21,086 nt of DNA. Origin: a virus. Shown here in pieces: positions 1,182-21,086 of the stretch. Position 1 is the first letter of the stretch; the number at the start of each line of letters is the position of its first letter. The notes beneath the pieces were generated by a model. It saw only the letters and a program-made list of their open reading frames with translations. It was not told the origin of the DNA and did no database searches. The position numbers were made by a program, and so were the translations under genes. The stretch lies in IMG/VR virus record IMGVR_UViG_3300008113_001092, positions 1 to 21,086 of that record. One strand, given 5' to 3'.

Positions 1182-2246
1182 ATGGCTGAAGTACAGTTCG
1201 GTAAGACGGTCACACTCGACCAAGCCGAGACCCTTATTCGTACCAACCCACAAACGCGGTTCATGCTGCGTGGTGAGCCGGGCATCGGCAAGAGCTGGAT
1301 GCTGCAAGTTATTGCCGAGAAGCTGGGCTATGACTATGCCTACATTGACGTGCCCAACCTAGACTTGGGTGACGTGGCTATGCCGGTCATCGACCATGAG
1401 ACCAAGACTACCCGCTACTACCCTAATGCTAGGTTCGGGCTACATACCGGCAAGCCGATGGTCATCATGTTGGATGAGTTCTCGAAGGGTGCTGACCCCA
1501 TCAAGAACATGCTGCACCCCATGCTGGAGAAGGCTAACCCGCGACTGGGTGACGTGCCGATCCACAAGAACAACATCATCTTCCTGACTGGTAACTTGGC
1601 AACCGACGGTGTGGGCGATACATTAAAAGCGCACACACTAAACCGTATTGTGCCGGTGACAGTCCAGAAGCCTGATGCGGATCAGTGGGTGGCGTGGGCT
1701 ATGAACAATGACGTGGAAGCGGAGGTCATTGCTTGGGTGTCTAGGTATCCGCACGTATTGGCAAGCTATACCGACCCGAGCCAAGCGGACAACCCGTACA
1801 TCTTCAACCCGAAGCGACCGCAGATGGCGTTCGTCTCGCCGCGCTCGTTGGTGACTGCATCGGACATCATCAAGTCCCGTTCCCAGAACCATACGGATGC
1901 GGTGATAGCTGCATTGACCGGTGCTATCGGTGAAGCGGGTGCGCGTGACATGCAAGCCTACTTGGAGTTCTCGGATCAGTTGCCGACGTGGGAGCAGACC
2001 ATCGAGCATCCGACCACCACCAAGATACCGACCGACCCCGGCGCGTGTGCAATCGTGGTGTTCGGTGCTATTGCGCGGATAACCAAAGAGACCATCACAC
2101 CATTCATGACGTATCTGGATCGGATGCAACCCGAGTGGCAAGCGGTGTTCGCCATCAACCTGTCCAAAGCCCATGCTAAGCAACAGGTAGCGTTCAGCAG
2201 CAGGGCGTTCTCTGACTGGGTGGCTAAGAATCAGGACTTGCTGTAA
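1182..2246 (+). CDS. MoxR-type AAA+ ATPase
   Basis: A 354-residue ATPase of the MoxR type of AAA+ proteins, which typically act as chaperones that remodel or activate partner proteins carrying VWA domains. Walker A is GEPGIGKS (residues 31-38), Walker B is VIMLDE (94-99), sensor 1 is TGN (136-138), and R155 in HTLNRIVPV is a candidate arginine finger. The C-terminal half is helical and unassigned. The start is well supported: AAGGAG, 6 bases, ATG. The next recognisable partner is the metallopeptidase/VWA gene at 2491-3646, the classical MoxR association. The palindrome at 1128 and the promoter at 928 are its visible control elements. The family assignment is firm; the phage role is unknown, with candidate roles in host takeover, virion maturation or defence. 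Confidence 0.92.
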   Translation: MAEVQFGKTVTLDQAETLIRTNPQTRFMLRGEPGIGKSWMLQVIAEKLGYDYAYIDVPNLDLGDVAMPVIDHETKTTRYYPNARFGLHTGKPMVIMLDEFSKGADPIKNMLHPMLEKANPRLGDVPIHKNNIIFLTGNLATDGVGDTLKAHTLNRIVPVTVQKPDADQWVAWAMNNDVEAEVIAWVSRYPHVLASYTDPSQADNPYIFNPKRPQMAFVSPRSLVTASDIIKSRSQNHTDAVIAALTGAIGEAGARDMQAYLEFSDQLPTWEQTIEHPTTTKIPTDPGACAIVVFGAIARITKETITPFMTYLDRMQPEWQAVFAINLSKAHAKQQVAFSSRAFSDWVAKNQDLL

Positions 2247-2490: not shown

Positions 2491-3315
2491 ATGCAAGAAG
2501 AGCGTAGGTTGCAGAAGGCAAAGATCAGCCTGATGCGTAACGAGAAGTTCGCGCTGTTCGCTGGTGTGCTGATGGTAGGTAGAACATTCGTGAAGGATGA
2601 CGTGCCGACTGCATGCACCAATGGGCGCGACGAGCTGTATGGGCGGGAGTTCGTCAAGAAGCTACGTGACAACGAGCTTGCATTCGTGGTGCTGCACGAA
2701 GCAATGCACAAAGCGTATCGACACTTGACTACGTGGAAGAAGTTACATGATGAGAACCACATGCTAGCCAACGCTGCTTGTGACTACGTTATTAACTTGG
2801 AACTGCGAGACCTTGACCCAGAGGGTAAGTTCATTAGCATGCCGGTGTTTCGTGAGGGGGAGAATCGCGGCAAGGTGATGGGCTTGATCGATGAGAAGTA
2901 TCGCGGTCTGAATTCAAAGCAAGTGTTCGACCTACTGAAAGAGGAGTATGGCAACGACGGTGGTGACGTAGGCGATGGCTTCGATGAGCACGACTGGGAT
3001 GGGGCGCAGAACTTATCCGAGGAAGAGAAGGAGAAGTTAGCGCGTGACATTGACCAAGCTATGCGGCAGGGGCTAATGGCGCAGCAGAAGATAGCAGGAC
3101 AAGGAACTGGTGGGATGTCCCGCGATCTTGCCGAGTTGATGCAGCCAAAAATCGATTGGCGTGAAGTGCTGCGTGAGTTCGTCAAGACAACGTGCCGCGC
3201 GAGGGATGCGTCATCGTGGCGTAGAGTCAACCGGCGGTTCCTATCGGGTGACACGTACATGCCGAGTCTGATCGGGATCGGTAGGTGTGAACGAGCTGAA
3301 GGAGTTCTTATCTGA
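2491..3315 (+). pseudogene. DUF2201-type metallopeptidase-like domain, N-terminal half of a broken metallopeptidase/VWA gene
   Basis: The 274-residue frame begins at ATG 2491 after an AAAGGGG ribosome-binding site. It has a zinc-protease-like HEAMH (69-73) and a downstream AACDYVIN whose D98 is a plausible third ligand, as in the N-terminal domain of DUF2201 proteins. An acidic, Lys/Glu-rich linker follows, then the conserved DWREVLREFV...SW.R.NRR segment that leads into the VWA domain. At about 3270 the frame leaves the family pattern: after MPSLIG it reads a short non-homologous tail and stops. The rest of the VWA domain continues in another frame from about 3272. The family usually forms one polypeptide with both domains. 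A free metallopeptidase half could still be made, but not an intact VWA protein. Confidence 0.75.
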
Positions 3316-3646
3316 GGTGAAGGGTATCGCGGAGGAAGTCAACCCAGAGAAGGTGGACTTGCTGTACTGGGACAGTTCGATAGCGGGGCATGAGGAGTAT
3401 ACCGACACCAATGTATCCAACATCATCGCATCGACCAAGCCGAAGGGCGGTGGTGGCACTTCGCCTTCCTGCATCACGAAGTATCTGGAAGAGAAGCACA
3501 TCGAGCCGGAGTGCTGCATCGTGCTGACCGATGGGTATGTGGGTGATGACTGGGGTGGCAATTGGCCTTCGCCTGTGCTGTGGGTGATCGTCGGTGGCAA
3601 CGACGTGATGGCGGCTAAGGGCAAGACTGTCCACGTGAAGGACTGA
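3272..3646 (+). pseudogene. VWA domain, C-terminal half of the broken DUF2201-type gene
   Basis: This frame encodes most of a VWA domain. From 3272 it reads SGSVGVNELKEF, where SGS is the end of the DxSGS MIDAS metal-binding motif; the preceding codons that should give the aspartate are missing and a TGA occupies 3269-3271. Later MIDAS elements are intact: the GGGGT threonine (KPKGGGGTSPS) and the aspartate of LTDGYVGD. The only usable start is GTG 3287, with at best a weak AGG upstream, so independent translation looks poor. The likely history is one gene that lost roughly a dozen or so codons plus frame, possibly between short ATCGG repeats. A sequencing or assembly error is the alternative. 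Confidence 0.75.
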
Positions 3647-5189: not shown

Positions 5190-5345
5190 ATGAGCATGCA
5201 AGACATTATGAAGTTGTCCAATGTGACCTTGGCAACGAGAATTAGAGATCAGTTGAATGCGCCCGTGACTGAGTACCGTGGGCAATTAAACTTTACCGAC
5301 GCTGTGTGGGTGGCGATAATGCGGTCGCCATTACGAGCCGACTGA
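5190..5345 (+). CDS. Short protein of unknown function, or 5' part of a frameshifted gene
   Basis: The frame encodes 51 residues (MSMQDIMKLSNVTLATRIRD...). It has one of the best ribosome-binding sites in the window, AGGAGG at 5176-5181 with a spacer of about 8 bases, so translation almost certainly starts here. The 3' end overlaps by 40 bases a 199-codon frame that has no good start of its own. The likely explanations are a translationally coupled overlapping gene pair or one gene of about 238 codons split by a frameshift near 5306-5345. No domain is recognised. Confidence 0.6.
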   Translation: MSMQDIMKLSNVTLATRIRDQLNAPVTEYRGQLNFTDAVWVAIMRSPLRAD

Positions 5346-5905
5346 TAAAACATAAGATAAGCAGGGGCGATACGCAATACACTAAGAATGCGGTGACGGC
5401 GGTATCGATTGCCAAGAAGATGTTCGCCAAGCGTACGCAGTCCGAGCAGCTAGAGGAAGCGTGGAAAGCAGCATCGATGACGTTCAGTAATTCAGATTAC
5501 AGAAGCGGCACTGACGTTAAAGATACGCTAGCAAAGATAAACAAAACGCTTTGCGAGTTTGTGTTTCAGCAGAAGATGCGGGAGTTCCGAGAGTATTTGC
5601 AGATGCTACCAAGCGGTGCAACACTTACAACTACGCTAGATAAATACTTGGAACAGAAGGCTAGCTATGATGTTATCAAGGAAGTTACAACACGTTTCCG
5701 TGCTGGCAACAGTTGCTTAGTTCTGATGAATGATGGTATATACACTGTCCAATTTAAAGACAAGTCACCTGAGACATACGATGATGCTACGCTACCTATG
5801 GAGTATCGCGGCAAGATCGGCCTACTGAAGCTGGTGGATGATGGGCAGATGGTAGCTGACAACGGCTGCCGTATTAGTCGCAACACTTTTGTGCTTGTAT
5901 TTTGA
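5306..5905 (+). CDS. Protein of unknown function; start uncertain (overlaps preceding short frame)
   Basis: The frame is open for 199 codons from a GTG at 5306 that has no Shine-Dalgarno sequence; in-frame extension upstream stops at a TGA at 5270-5272. The sequence is lysine-rich and helical in its first half (TAVSIAKKMFAKRTQSEQLEEAW) and turns beta-rich near the C-terminus, with VLMNDGIYTVQFKD and a final NGCRISRNTFVLVF. I do not recognise the family. The body is clearly coding; the real N-terminus may be supplied by the 5190 frame through a frameshift, or the gene is translated by coupling to it. The stop lies just before the GAGGAG of the next gene. Confidence 0.7.
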   Translation: MGGDNAVAITSRLIKHKISRGDTQYTKNAVTAVSIAKKMFAKRTQSEQLEEAWKAASMTFSNSDYRSGTDVKDTLAKINKTLCEFVFQQKMREFREYLQMLPSGATLTTTLDKYLEQKASYDVIKEVTTRFRAGNSCLVLMNDGIYTVQFKDKSPETYDDATLPMEYRGKIGLLKLVDDGQMVADNGCRISRNTFVLVF

Positions 5906-8315: not shown

Positions 8316-8589
8316 AGCAGCAGTCGTGCGGATACTGAAGAAGCACGGCGTGTATTACTTCTCCCCCAACACACACGGCTACGGACGCTCAGGCGTACCG
8401 GACATCATATGCTGTCTGCATGGGGGGAAGTTTCTAGCCATAGAGTGCAAGGCTGGGAGGAACCAACCGACTGCGCTGCAAGAGCGAGAGATACGCGAGA
8501 TACAACTACGCAAGGGGTTAGCAATGATTGTGCGTGAAGATAGCGTTGAGTTAGTAGAGCAAGTCGTTTCAGAGAATAGCCGCGCATGA
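8287..8589 (+). CDS. VRR-NUC domain nuclease
   Basis: A 100-residue stand-alone VRR-NUC domain, a PD-(D/E)XK superfamily nuclease fold found in phages and in the DNA-repair enzyme FAN1. The diagnostic elements are in order: an N-terminal helix (EAKVKAAVVRILKKHGVYYF), GVPDI (36-40) with the metal-binding aspartate, FLAIECKAG (49-57) with the catalytic Glu/Lys pair, and the following PT.LQ..E helix. VRR-NUC proteins of this kind act as structure-specific nucleases, so Holliday-junction or flap processing during phage replication is plausible. The start at ATG 8287 has GGGAG upstream; ATG 8293 is an alternative. It overlaps the polymerase start by 4 bases. Confidence 0.93.
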   Translation: MAMTPEAKVKAAVVRILKKHGVYYFSPNTHGYGRSGVPDIICCLHGGKFLAIECKAGRNQPTALQEREIREIQLRKGLAMIVREDSVELVEQVVSENSRA

Positions 8590-10349
8590 AAGTAATTACG
8601 CTGGACTTTGAGACGTACTATGACCGTGACTTCAGCCTGTCGAAGCTGACCACGGAAGAGTATGTGCGCGGGGACAAGTTCGAAACGATTGGCGTGGGGA
8701 TCAAGGATGGTGACGCAGAAGCCGAGTGGTGCAGTGGTACAGCCGAAGAGGTCAAGGAGTTCTTGGACTCATTCAATATGGGCGAACATCTGGTGCTTGC
8801 TCATAACGCTATGTTTGATGCCGCTATTCTTACTTGGCATTTCGGCATTAAGCCTCGCGGCTGGCTTGACACGCTTAGCATGTCACGTGCACTACACACT
8901 ATCGAAGTGGGCGGTAGCCTTGCGGCGCTAGCTAAGTACTACGCACTAGGTGAGAAGGGCGATGAGTACTGTAAGAACGATGTCGAGCTGACCTACAAGC
9001 TGTTCAACCTTTTGTCCCACCAGTTCCCTGCTAAAGAGCTACGGCTAATTGACCTGACCATCCGCATGTTCTCGGAGCCAAAGCTTCGCGTGGAAGTGGA
9101 GGGGCTACGCCAGCATTTATTAGCGGTGCAGAACACCAAAACGAAGCTGCTCGAATCGGTAACGATGGTGGACAAAGATCAGCTGATGTCGAACGTCAAG
9201 TTCGCCGGAACGCTACGCGCATTCAATATTGAACCGCCAATGAAGATCAGTCCGACCACAGGCAAAGAGACTTACGCCTTCTCAAAGAACGACGAAGAGT
9301 TTAAGGCGTTGCTTGCGCATGAAAACATAAACGTACAGGCTGTCGTGGCGGCACGGCTTGGGGTGAAGTCAACGCTAGAAGAAACCCGCACTGAGCGCAT
9401 GATCAGTATCGGACAACGCGGCCCCTTACCGGTACCCCTACGTTACTACGCTGCGCATACTGGACGTTGGGGAGGTGACGACAAGCTGAACCTACAGAAC
9501 TTACCCCGCAAGTCACCCATCAAGAAAGCCATCATTGCCCCCGAGGGCTATATGGTGATCGACTCGGACTCTTCGCAGATCGAAGCACGTACGCTGGCAT
9601 GGCTAGCGGGGCAGAATGATTTGGTGGCTGCGTTCGATCGGGGCGAGGACGTGTACAAAATTATGGCTTCTGCCATCTACGGCATCTCTGAAGCGTCAGT
9701 CAACCCAGATCAACGGTTCGTTGGTAAGACCACGATTCTCGGTGCGGGGTACGGCATGGGTGCTGCTAAGTTCCAAGCCCAGCTAAAGACATTCAAAGTT
9801 GAAATCGAGCTTGATGAATGCAAACGGATTATTGATACCTATCGTCGTACCTACCCACGCATCCCTGAGCTTTGGAAGCAAGCGGGGGAAGCCCTGCATG
9901 CCATCATTGGTGACAGAGCCACGGAGTTGGGGCGTGATGGAGTGCTGAAGATTGAGGGCACCAAAGGCATCCGACTGCCCAACGGCTTGTACATCAAGTA
10001 CCCCAACCTGCGCTGGATAGAGCGGGAGCCGGGAGCCAAACCCGAGTATGTGTACGACACCAAGCGCGGCAAAGCCACGATACCCAACCGCATCTACGGT
10101 GGGAAGGTAATCGAGAACGTCTGCCAAGCCCTAGCTAGGATCATCATCGGCGACCAGATGCTAATGATTGCCAAAAAGTATCCGGTGGTTATGACGGTGC
10201 ACGATGCTGTTACTTGCCTAGTACCAGAAGATGAAGCTGAAACAGGGAAGGAGTTCGTCGAGCTATGCATGAGACTACGCCCTATGTGGGCATCCGAGCT
10301 TCCGTTAAACTGCGAGGCTGGATACGGAAGGAGTTACGGAGAATGCTAG
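8586..10349 (+). CDS. Family A DNA polymerase with 3'-5' exonuclease domain
   Basis: The replicative polymerase, 587 residues. The N-terminal DEDD proofreading exonuclease shows Exo I LDFET (D7, E9), Exo II AHNAMFD (D78) and Exo III YCKND (Y128, D132). The polymerase domain has the THGRW-like HTGRWGG (291-297), motif A DSSQIE (D328-E333), motif B R377...K381...YG (389-390) and motif C VHDA (538-541). Motif C has Ala where Pol I has Glu. The length is compact compared with bacterial Pol I, with no 5' nuclease domain, as usual for phages. The ATG overlaps the VRR-NUC stop (ATGA), so translation is probably coupled. It would copy phage DNA with the primase-helicase at 14797. Confidence 0.97.
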   Translation: MKVITLDFETYYDRDFSLSKLTTEEYVRGDKFETIGVGIKDGDAEAEWCSGTAEEVKEFLDSFNMGEHLVLAHNAMFDAAILTWHFGIKPRGWLDTLSMSRALHTIEVGGSLAALAKYYALGEKGDEYCKNDVELTYKLFNLLSHQFPAKELRLIDLTIRMFSEPKLRVEVEGLRQHLLAVQNTKTKLLESVTMVDKDQLMSNVKFAGTLRAFNIEPPMKISPTTGKETYAFSKNDEEFKALLAHENINVQAVVAARLGVKSTLEETRTERMISIGQRGPLPVPLRYYAAHTGRWGGDDKLNLQNLPRKSPIKKAIIAPEGYMVIDSDSSQIEARTLAWLAGQNDLVAAFDRGEDVYKIMASAIYGISEASVNPDQRFVGKTTILGAGYGMGAAKFQAQLKTFKVEIELDECKRIIDTYRRTYPRIPELWKQAGEALHAIIGDRATELGRDGVLKIEGTKGIRLPNGLYIKYPNLRWIEREPGAKPEYVYDTKRGKATIPNRIYGGKVIENVCQALARIIIGDQMLMIAKKYPVVMTVHDAVTCLVPEDEAETGKEFVELCMRLRPMWASELPLNCEAGYGRSYGEC

Positions 10350-17869: not shown

Positions 17870-17900
17870 GCCCCCGCTTCTCCCCGGCGGGGGCTTTTTT
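17870..17900 (+). terminator. Rho-independent terminator of the plus-strand replication unit
   Basis: GCCCCCGC (17870-17877), 9-base loop, GCGGGGGC (17887-17894), then TTTTTT (17895-17900). The T-run overlaps the stop codon of the convergent gene (17899-17901). On the minus strand no T-run follows the stem, so it works well only rightward. Confidence 0.93.
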
Positions 17901-20900
17901 ATTTGCCTTCCTTATTACGGCGCTCCAGCACTTGCCTATTGCGCTCCTCAATTTTCTTAATTTTGTTCAGCGCAGCTTCTGCACCATAGGCTTCAAACTT
18001 CTCGTCTATCGGCATGCCGCCCCACGTTTCGATGTCGGCAATGGTTTGCTCTTTGCGCTCGATGGATGAATCCAAGCTTTCTTGATCTATCTCGTACTCA
18101 GGGTACTTGATGTTGAACTTATCAATCTTGTCCATCTGTTTGTCGTAGCCATCCCACTTGTTGCTACTCATGCCTTTGAAGAACTCACGGGTGGCATTGT
18201 TCATAAGCTTGGTGCGCTCAATCTCAATACGGTTCTTGTTTGCGCTTAACTTGAACGCAAGCTGCTGTGGTTCCGATAGGATGTCTGGACGGAAGCCGAT
18301 TGACTGTCCGATTAGCTCGCCTGTAGTGAAGCCGCCTTGCAAGATAAGCTCACTACCCTTAATGTCTTTAGCACCTTCAGTTGCGTATTTGTGCGTAAGA
18401 ATAAAGTTGCGGATGAGCGCAGGTGACATCTTCTCGATACCCTTCTGATAGTCTCCGTTACCAAACGCTTCGTATGCGTCGGCAATAGAAAGAATCATGT
18501 TGGCAGAAGGTCCAGCTTTCTCCATCGCAAAGGCCAGCACCGACTCACGAGCAGTCTTAGTTTCTTTGGTGTCGCGCATCCATAGGTCGTTCAAGCTTGT
18601 GCGCGATGCAATATCAAGCCCCGTGATCTGGTTAGCCACGCCACGCTCAACTAAGTCAGATAGCTTCACACCACCAACCTCAATATGACCTAGCGTTTCT
18701 GGGAGCCATACCGAGCGCCACCAAGTCTCGTAGTCCATATCTTTAAGCTCTTGCGGCTTATCTTCATCACGCCAGTACCAGCCAAGCATGCCCATGACAA
18801 TGCTAAACATCGGGAGACCCGCAGCACCTGCCAACACCATGGTCGTGCCGAGAGTGCCGAACATAATCTTGGTTGCTTCCCACTTACCTTCTTTATTCAG
18901 CAGGGGCAGCATGCGTTTGAAGTTACGCATCAGGAATAGCGTCACGTGCAGCGGATACATCGAGAACTGCAACGCTATCTTCCCAAGCCCCTTCTGCATA
19001 AATAGCGGGCGGTTGTACTGTCCGTAGTTACCAAGTGCTTCGTTGGTATCAATAACAGCTTGACCGACTGCTTCATTAAAGCCTTTGCCTGCTTGACGGT
19101 TCAAGCGATAAGAAGCCAAGAACACCATCTCACGGGACAGACGTTCCGTGGTGTGCATCAAGCCGCCGGTAGCCACAGCAAGTCCGCGCTTAGTTGTATC
19201 CAGCACCCCGCCCAACTGCGCAGTCGGCGTAGACTTGTAGCCAAACATCGCGCTGGCATAGGTAGACTGGAATACGTCGCGTCCTAATGCTTCACGGATA
19301 GCCCTGCGCTCATCATCTTTAAGCCCCTTAGCGTTTGACATACTGGGAGCTACAAACGACAGCGTGCCGTCCGGGTTCTTACGCCACACACCATAGGTGT
19401 CCCATAGCTTCAGGGTTCTAGCAAGTTCACGAGCGCCATTAATCTGCCCATAACGAGATAGCAGGATTGGCGTAGCGGTTTGGAACACACCGATTGGCTG
19501 TAACAACGCCGAGGACGCACCTGACAGATACCAGATAAACGCCGAGCGGTTGAGGAAGTCACCGACCCGGTCGGATGCGGTACGAGTGCCGGGATTGAGC
19601 TGCGCATTGATGCGAGCCTGCATCTCCGTAATGAACGGTTGTAGCTCTTCTCGACCTACGATGGAATCCTGAGCCGCCGAGATAGAGTTGCGCAGTAGTG
19701 GAGCGTACTTAATCTTGGACAACTGCGTCGCCATCTTGGTGCCGGTTGTAGAGATGTTGCGCAGCAGGTCGGTTGAGAAGCCCGTGATGTTCTTACGGTT
19801 GATGAACTGCCTGCGGAAACTTTGCTCCGGCATCGCTGTTAGGTACAGCTGGTAGACGGCATCTTTCAGTTCTTCCCGCACTGTCGGGTCGCTGTAGTCT
19901 TGGTTGTCAATGATGTCAAACAGACTCTTCAGGATGCCACTGGAATCAAACGATGCCCTGCGCAGCGATCCAATATCGTTGCCGAGCACGAAGTCCTGAT
20001 CTTCTTTCAACTGCTCTAGCGGTGTACGGCGCTCTTTTGCAAATGCTTCAGCAGCAGCATCTCGCTCTGCCGCCGACTCGAAAGTGAAGAACTGCCGATG
20101 CTTGCCGGAGCCAATAGCCAGCCAGAAGTCACCACGGCGCACCAATGGAACATAAGGTCTGATGCGCTGCCCAGTCTCATACATCTTGCGCACCAGCGCC
20201 ATGATCTGGTTCTGTGACTCTGTGGTCAGGCGGGCGTTGGCAATCTGATCATCCAACAACTGCGCGAAGTAGTCAGACATATCCTGATAGTGTTGCAGGA
20301 TGAGCTTAAATATAGCTTGCCCTTTAGCACCGAGGTCTCGGTACATGTCATCTAGCTTCTTGCTGCGCTCCGTAGCGTCAGGGTCAGTTGGGTCTACTTG
20401 CGCAAGTGTAGAGGCGTAGGACAAGTCCTCCAGCTTAGTGCGCAGTGTCTTATCTTCCTTGAACGCTTTGTGTATGGTCTGGGTGAGGATAGCCGTTGAG
20501 TTCAGCAGTTGCTGTGTCAGACCACCCATCTTTTCCAACAGCACGTTGGCGTTCAATAGCTCCGGTATATACGAGCCACCCCAGCGAGCAAGGAACTCAG
20601 TGGTCGGCATTTTGACCAGCAGCTGCCGCTGCGCGTAGGTCGCACCTTTCCACAACTGCCGCATGGCGGGCAGAATCTTGGTTGGGTCACGGAGTGCCTG
20701 AAGTAACTTGGACTGTTGCGCTAGCTCCTCGGCTTGTCTGCCGATACGTACTTTCTCCAGCGCAATATCAACTTCTGTGTTGATCTGCTTTTCAGTCCTT
20801 ACTGCTTCATCTTGCTCTCCAGCCTCCTCAGCTTTGCTAGTAGCTCCGGTACCGACGCCGACTTTTCCAGTACGTTGATAGCTCGGTTCAGCCCATCCGG

Positions 20901-21086
20901 ATAGGTCGGGTCCGGGTTCTTCTCCTGCATTGCGAGCGCCTTCCACTGTCCCAACAGTGCCATCATCTCTGGCTTGGTAGGAGCCAGCGTCTTGGAAGCG
21001 GTTTCCACGAGCGGTAAGATTTCCACTTGTAAACTCCTTATCTAGGAAGTCAAATATGTTGATGTACTTCTGAACGTGATTCGTTA
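17899..21086 (-). CDS. C-terminal part of a very large PLxRFG-type phage protein (5' end uncertain or outside the window)
   Basis: The only long minus-strand gene. From the stop at 17899 the frame is open leftwards on its own strand to the window edge, about 1061 codons; the first in-frame GTG within the window (20946) has no ribosome-binding site. The C-terminal part contains YNRPLFMQKGLGKIALQFSMYP, the region by which I recognise PLxRFG / large polyvalent phage proteins, then a hydrophobic segment (FGTLGTTMVLAGAAGLPMF and following, encoded around 18780-18870) that may span a membrane. The rest is helical. Such proteins are thought to be virion-internal or injected with the DNA. The region 20799-21026 also carries another plausible frame, so the true start remains open. 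Confidence 0.8.
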   Translation of the reverse strand, partial: TNHVQKYINIFDFLDKEFTSGNLTARGNRFQDAGSYQARDDGTVGTVEGARNAGEEPGPDLSGWAEPSYQRTGKVGVGTGATSKAEEAGEQDEAVRTEKQINTEVDIALEKVRIGRQAEELAQQSKLLQALRDPTKILPAMRQLWKGATYAQRQLLVKMPTTEFLARWGGSYIPELLNANVLLEKMGGLTQQLLNSTAILTQTIHKAFKEDKTLRTKLEDLSYASTLAQVDPTDPDATERSKKLDDMYRDLGAKGQAIFKLILQHYQDMSDYFAQLLDDQIANARLTTESQNQIMALVRKMYETGQRIRPYVPLVRRGDFWLAIGSGKHRQFFTFESAAERDAAAEAFAKERRTPLEQLKEDQDFVLGNDIGSLRRASFDSSGILKSLFDIIDNQDYSDPTVREELKDAVYQLYLTAMPEQSFRRQFINRKNITGFSTDLLRNISTTGTKMATQLSKIKYAPLLRNSISAAQDSIVGREELQPFITEMQARINAQLNPGTRTASDRVGDFLNRSAFIWYLSGASSALLQPIGVFQTATPILLSRYGQINGARELARTLKLWDTYGVWRKNPDGTLSFVAPSMSNAKGLKDDERRAIREALGRDVFQSTYASAMFGYKSTPTAQLGGVLDTTKRGLAVATGGLMHTTERLSREMVFLASYRLNRQAGKGFNEAVGQAVIDTNEALGNYGQYNRPLFMQKGLGKIALQFSMYPLHVTLFLMRNFKRMLPLLNKEGKWEATKIMFGTLGTTMVLAGAAGLPMFSIVMGMLGWYWRDEDKPQELKDMDYETWWRSVWLPETLGHIEVGGVKLSDLVERGVANQITGLDIASRTSLNDLWMRDTKETKTARESVLAFAMEKAGPSANMILSIADAYEAFGNGDYQKGIEKMSPALIRNFILTHKYATEGAKDIKGSELILQGGFTTGELIGQSIGFRPDILSEPQQLAFKLSANKNRIEIERTKLMNNATREFFKGMSSNKWDGYDKQMDKIDKFNIKYPEYEIDQESLDSSIERKEQTIADIETWGGMPIDEKFEAYGAEAALNKIKKIEERNRQVLERRNKEGK
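20799..21026 (-). CDS. 75-residue helical protein overlapping the large gene out of frame
   Basis: A GTG at 21026 is preceded by AAGGAG with a 7-base spacer, the best start signal at this end of the window. The 75-residue product (beginning MEILPLVETASKTLAPTKPEMMALLGQWKAL) is helical, natural in composition and mostly uses G or C in third positions like its neighbours. It ends in a TAA that the large gene reads in another frame. It may be the real gene here, with the large gene starting downstream by a mechanism I cannot see, or a chance frame. An AGGAGG near 20825 precedes an ATG in this frame, not in that of the large gene. Confidence 0.55.
   Translation of the reverse strand: MEILPLVETASKTLAPTKPEMMALLGQWKALAMQEKNPDPTYPDGLNRAINVLEKSASVPELLAKLRRLESKMKQ

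Follow-up and report, generated by a model that had tools for sequence, protein, structure and literature searches.

A MoxR-partner VWA gene that appears split in a single assembled viral record, probably through an artefact of that record

The window—the entire IMG/VR virus record IMGVR_UViG_3300008113_001092, 21,086 bp in length—carries a gene for a putative MoxR-like ATPase and, downstream of it, a partner gene that is spread over two reading frames. Does this represent a new kind of protein, the recent loss of a familiar one, or a fault in the assembled sequence? In its intact form the family is already known: a MoxR AAA+/DUF2201 pair (HExxH plus VWA) common in N4-like and other phages, where the protein encoded downstream of the MoxR-like ATPase gene (phrog_1314/DUF2201; PF13203 + PF09967) has the same two-domain architecture, as in gp031 of Vibrio phage SBP1 (Schitoviridae), a phage with its MoxR ATPase, HNH and metallopeptidase genes in a row. 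In the window, the match to phrog_1297 taken together with gene order points to a MoxR-clade AAA+ gene adjoining the VWA gene; SBP1 shows the same order, and its AAA gene bears the annotation MoxR-like. The arrangement also recalls NorQ/NorD, RavA/ViaA and other MoxR AAA+/VWA pairs, in which the AAA+ gene sits beside one encoding a VWA protein with a DxSxS...T...D ‘MIDAS’ motif; unlike partners of the NorD/ViaA type, however, the phage protein begins with an HExxH peptidase-like domain. The best fold match in the PDB to an AlphaFold2 model of an intact relative is the MIDAS domain of MDN1 (Foldseek), a search of the PDB by sequence returning no meaningful relative, and a search of the literature on MoxR/VWA function in N4-like phages found no study of the phage pair. 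We also observe that the metallopeptidase/VWA protein is annotated as ‘HNH endonuclease’ in many phage records (e.g. OZ195742 and NC_055784), a label that was probably transferred from the HNH gene next to it, as seen in SBP1 (gp030).

The best explanation of the locus is an ordinary MoxR AAA+/DUF2201 pair carried by a viral lineage, the second gene encoding a single protein of 398 aa, in which the VWA domain comes after an HExxH metallopeptidase-like domain. In the window, this second gene is recovered as two fragments (Table 1).

Table 1. Coordinates of the gene pair and of the other genes affected by deletions in the window.
Feature	Position	Strand	Details
Putative MoxR-like AAA+ ATPase	1182..2246	+	354 aa, intact; phrog_1297 ‘ATPase’ E 2.3e-47 over its length; AAA_5 E 5.8e-06
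N-terminal fragment, DUF2201_N putative metallopeptidase domain	2491..3315	+	274 aa; PF13203 E 1.8e-29, residues 3-260
C-terminal fragment, VWA domain without strand beta-1 and MIDAS aspartate	3272..3646	+	PF09967 E 2.3e-12 from model position 8; 95% identity to locus L082
Second broken gene, 285-aa ORF of G001/G002/G003	5190..5905	+	Split into 5190-5345 and 5306-5905
DNA polymerase A	8586..10349	+	66-nt in-frame deletion at 8962-8966; 4-nt homology TGAG

The N-terminal fragment contains the DUF2201_N domain with its HExxH motif (HEAMH, 2695-2709; residues 69-73) and is native up to residue 262 (PSLIG), with 97% identity to the corresponding protein of the closest record over residues 1-262, before ending in 12 residues foreign to the family, IGRCERAEGVLI. 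A TGA at 3269-3271 closes the +1 frame, which then reads SGSVGVNELKEF... from 3272 and stays open for 124 codons to a stop at 3644-3646, with a possible, non-conserved GTG start at 3287. Because the match to PF09967 (VWA-like DUF2201) begins only part-way into the model, the first strand of the VWA domain is absent; the fragment retains GGGGT (T at 3458-3460) and LTDG (D at 3530-3532), yet its MIDAS motif is without the aspartate and threonine of DTSGS. Both halves match phrog_1314 (positions 10-261 and 273-391), the VWA domain lying in the +1 frame in the window and in a single frame with DUF2201_N in the closest record. The whole 21-kb record, which may be a fragment, gives one DUF2201_N match, with no second intact copy.

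The closest record, IMGVR_UViG_3300011116_000388 (G001; locus L002), has 93% DNA identity over the gene and encodes a single 398-aa ORF containing ...PSLIGERVGHLVVAVDTSGSVGVNEL...; aligned against it, the window is missing 41 nt after position 3274 or 3275 (1-nt ambiguity; 41 mod 3 = 2). The deletion thus shifts the frame and removes both strand β1 and the MIDAS aspartate (ERVGHLVVAVDTSG). In an AlphaFold2 model of the intact protein (mean pLDDT 76) the segment ERVGHLVVAVDTSG, encoded by the missing 41 nt, is placed on strand beta-1 of the VWA domain (267-273) and the loop that follows; D273, T274, S275, G276 and S277, like the full MIDAS motif, do not vary among 15 aligned relatives. The ‘SGS’ still legible in the window is itself a composite, its first serine coming from the left flank of the junction and only the glycine and last serine of the original loop from the right. 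Two parts of the first-pass annotation are borne out by these comparisons: the PF13203 and PF09967 matches and the alignment agree with its description of a DUF2201 frame with a non-homologous tail followed, after a TGA, by a VWA domain in a second frame, and direct alignment to intact relatives confirms its proposal that a small deletion splits the gene and takes away the MIDAS aspartate. Its suggestion that the deletion arose between ATCGG direct repeats, on the other hand, has to be given up: G001 has two copies of GATCGG, 47 nt apart, such that slippage between them would have cost 47 nt and one of the copies, whereas 41 nt are gone from the window and both copies survive (CTGATCGG-GATCGGTAGG), with just 1 nt of homology at the junction.

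The split is not shared. All related loci that span the gene are single ORFs, except for those of the window and of one further record (G005, below), and none is split at the site seen in the window; the exact junction sequence occurs in no other viral contig, and an intact version at this level of identity is found only in G001. We found no near DNA relatives among isolated phages, whose versions of the protein are under 60% identical, but 582 of 787 matching isolate records cover at least 80% of it in one place; set against phrog_1314 as a whole, it is the gene of the window that is split by a deletion and left without its MIDAS aspartate. The neighbouring genes are unbroken: frame breaks are absent from the AAA gene in all 93 related records, and from the adjacent 287-aa gene in all 102.

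Two further conserved genes of the window carry deletions. That in the polymerase removes 22 conserved residues just before the ExoIII YCKND motif of the 3'-5' exonuclease domain; the 66 nt concerned are present in G001 and in the related records G003 and G004, as well as in the closest polymerase relative (L113), and no comparable gap was found there in any other polymerase locus. The 285-aa gene (function unassigned) has a 142-nt out-of-frame deletion after position 5309 (5309/5310), with 0 nt of homology at the junction, and is intact in G001, G002 and G003. Junction homologies of 1, 4 and 0 nt (VWA gene, polymerase and 285-aa gene, respectively) are inconsistent with each other and so do not indicate one slippage mechanism. 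None of the three deletions (41, 66 and 142 nt) was found in the relatives examined. Small ORFs present at ~6.1-6.3 kb of G001 are likewise missing from the window, a record that contains no Ns.

The other broken copy belongs to IMGVR_UViG_3300008107_002616 (G005; locus L111), where a 65-nt deletion interrupts the VWA gene a few codons downstream of DTSGS (L111 around 3283). As in the window, a second conserved gene is broken too, here the DNA polymerase, which is out of frame (L111 around 8090). G005 differs from the window in the position of the break, in lineage, in keeping DTSGS and in holding a 30-N scaffold gap (L111 5232-5261); several other stretches are missing only on its side of a comparison with its 94-98% relative, G011. 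It looks like a poorly joined scaffold.

If such breaks belong to records rather than to genes, they should cluster, and this is the test that we applied. All loci were surveyed for nine conserved genes of G001, and those sharing an identical 200-mer were merged, for a yield of 117 non-redundant viral clusters and 386 full-span gene instances. Deletion frame-breaks were found in 4 of the 386, all of them in two records: the window (VWA and 285-aa genes) and G005 (VWA and DNA polymerase genes). By random draw, four broken instances would fall into two or fewer clusters with p≈0.0005, in a control that counts gene instances as equal while the genes present vary with the length of the contig. One locus also shows a lesion of another type, a DNA polymerase (L187 803-2617) with a single internal stop in a frame that is otherwise full-length.

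Divergence between the window and G001 gives dN/dS values of 0.12 for the N-terminal half of the split gene and 0.16 for the VWA half, alongside 0.08 for the AAA gene, 0.02 for the helicase and 0.10 for the 287-aa gene. Polarised with G002, the changes on the window lineage in the VWA half comprise 3 nonsynonymous and 6 synonymous (binomial p 0.008 against neutrality), showing that the separated half is still under purifying selection. From these low ratios and the 3:6 split of changes it follows that nearly all of the divergence predates the break, leaving no time for decay; as expected for an event that is either technical or very recent.

Taken together, we favour the view, with a probability of roughly 0.6, that the split is a record-level artefact of the assembled sequence and not a new kind of protein, the technical cause being one that we infer. 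On this view three conserved genes in the interval from 3.2 to 9 kb would each have lost a short stretch (of 41, 66 and 142 nt), probably because of mis-joins or chimeric templates introduced at the amplification, sequencing or assembly stage. With the broken genes concentrated in two records, a record-level cause is the best explanation; and, among the options raised by the first-pass annotation, assembly error is preferred over real inactivation, its main rival, because the same contig holds two more gene-damaging deletions and the only other split copy, in G005, shows the same syndrome. Counting in the same direction are the presence of three deletions, two of them out of frame, when this one 21-kb record is set against G001, the unbroken state of the AAA and 287-aa neighbours, and a junction private to the window. 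Counting against it are the absence of Ns from the window, and a polymerase deletion that keeps the frame, as selection would demand; real illegitimate deletions, moreover, also show 0-4 nt of homology. More generally, the case illustrates how one assembled viral record may hint at a separation of domains or a lost gene for which its relatives offer no support.

The main rival, which we regard as possible but distinctly less probable, is that a 41-nt deletion, real, very recent and due to illegitimate recombination or an error of replication, knocked out the VWA domain of the virus or of a dominant population variant; the MoxR ATPase would then be left without a MIDAS-bearing partner, and the gene would be on its way to loss. 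The event is a clean one, with 1 nt of homology and intact flanks, and the C-terminal frame is still open over its full length, as it should be soon after such an event. Two products would result, a peptidase domain ending in a short foreign tail and a VWA fragment lacking its first strand and MIDAS aspartate, such that MIDAS-dependent target binding would be lost. In NorD, changes to T534 or D562 of the MIDAS abolished activity of the target enzyme, while NorQ still co-purified (PMC9976466); by analogy, loss of the MIDAS makes a plausible null allele, and a protein without it would be expected to lose its target, though not necessarily its ATPase. The question would then become what role a MoxR ATPase and a peptidase domain have in the absence of a MIDAS-bearing VWA domain. 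Against a real deletion, the two others in conserved genes of the record would all need to be recent and real as well, and, G005 aside, all other full-span relatives keep the family unbroken, indicating strong retention. As the closest relatives are 93-94% identical, with no sibling above ~94%, comparison alone cannot tell a private real deletion from an artefact.

We think it improbable that the window derives from a genuinely degenerate or defective phage or prophage with genes decaying by deletion. Three damaging deletions and the small ORFs missing relative to G001 would fit such a history, but dN/dS is low in every gene tested, and the helicase and AAA genes showed no nonsense mutation or frame break, whereas decay would leave point lesions too. 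Harder still to credit is a scenario in which the deletions are real and linked: a lineage whose polymerase is short of part of its proofreading domain would accumulate deletions, and would only now have given up the MIDAS function of its MoxR partner, so that the metallopeptidase domain stands free. Least credible of all is a deliberate separation of the peptidase and VWA domains into two proteins, the second made from GTG 3287 or by frameshifting: both halves do have open frames under purifying selection, but a restarted or programmed-frameshift product would still want strand beta-1 and the MIDAS aspartate, the codons aligned to GTG 3287 are not starts in two related loci (L003 and L004), and no relative has a two-gene arrangement with a conserved VWA start.

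Returning to the putative MoxR-like ATPase that the artefact reading leaves with an ordinary partner, we observe a 160-nt intergenic insertion upstream of its gene (954-1113) that is absent from G001 and G002. Two further copies occur in phages only ~60% identical in protein: one in L037, with ~92% identity to the element and immediately preceding the AAA gene, and one in L212, where it precedes the AAA gene by ~0.8 kb. It has no match in Rfam (nor has the window as a whole), phage records, plasmids or bacterial genomes, and its folding is unremarkable (z -0.79). A small mobile or regulatory element is one possibility. At the far end of the window, the minus strand of 17899-21084 encodes a protein of at least 1061 aa, open at the end of the record, that matches DarB-like antirestriction and polyvalent-protein families (phrog_10089, E 4.6e-62; LPD39).
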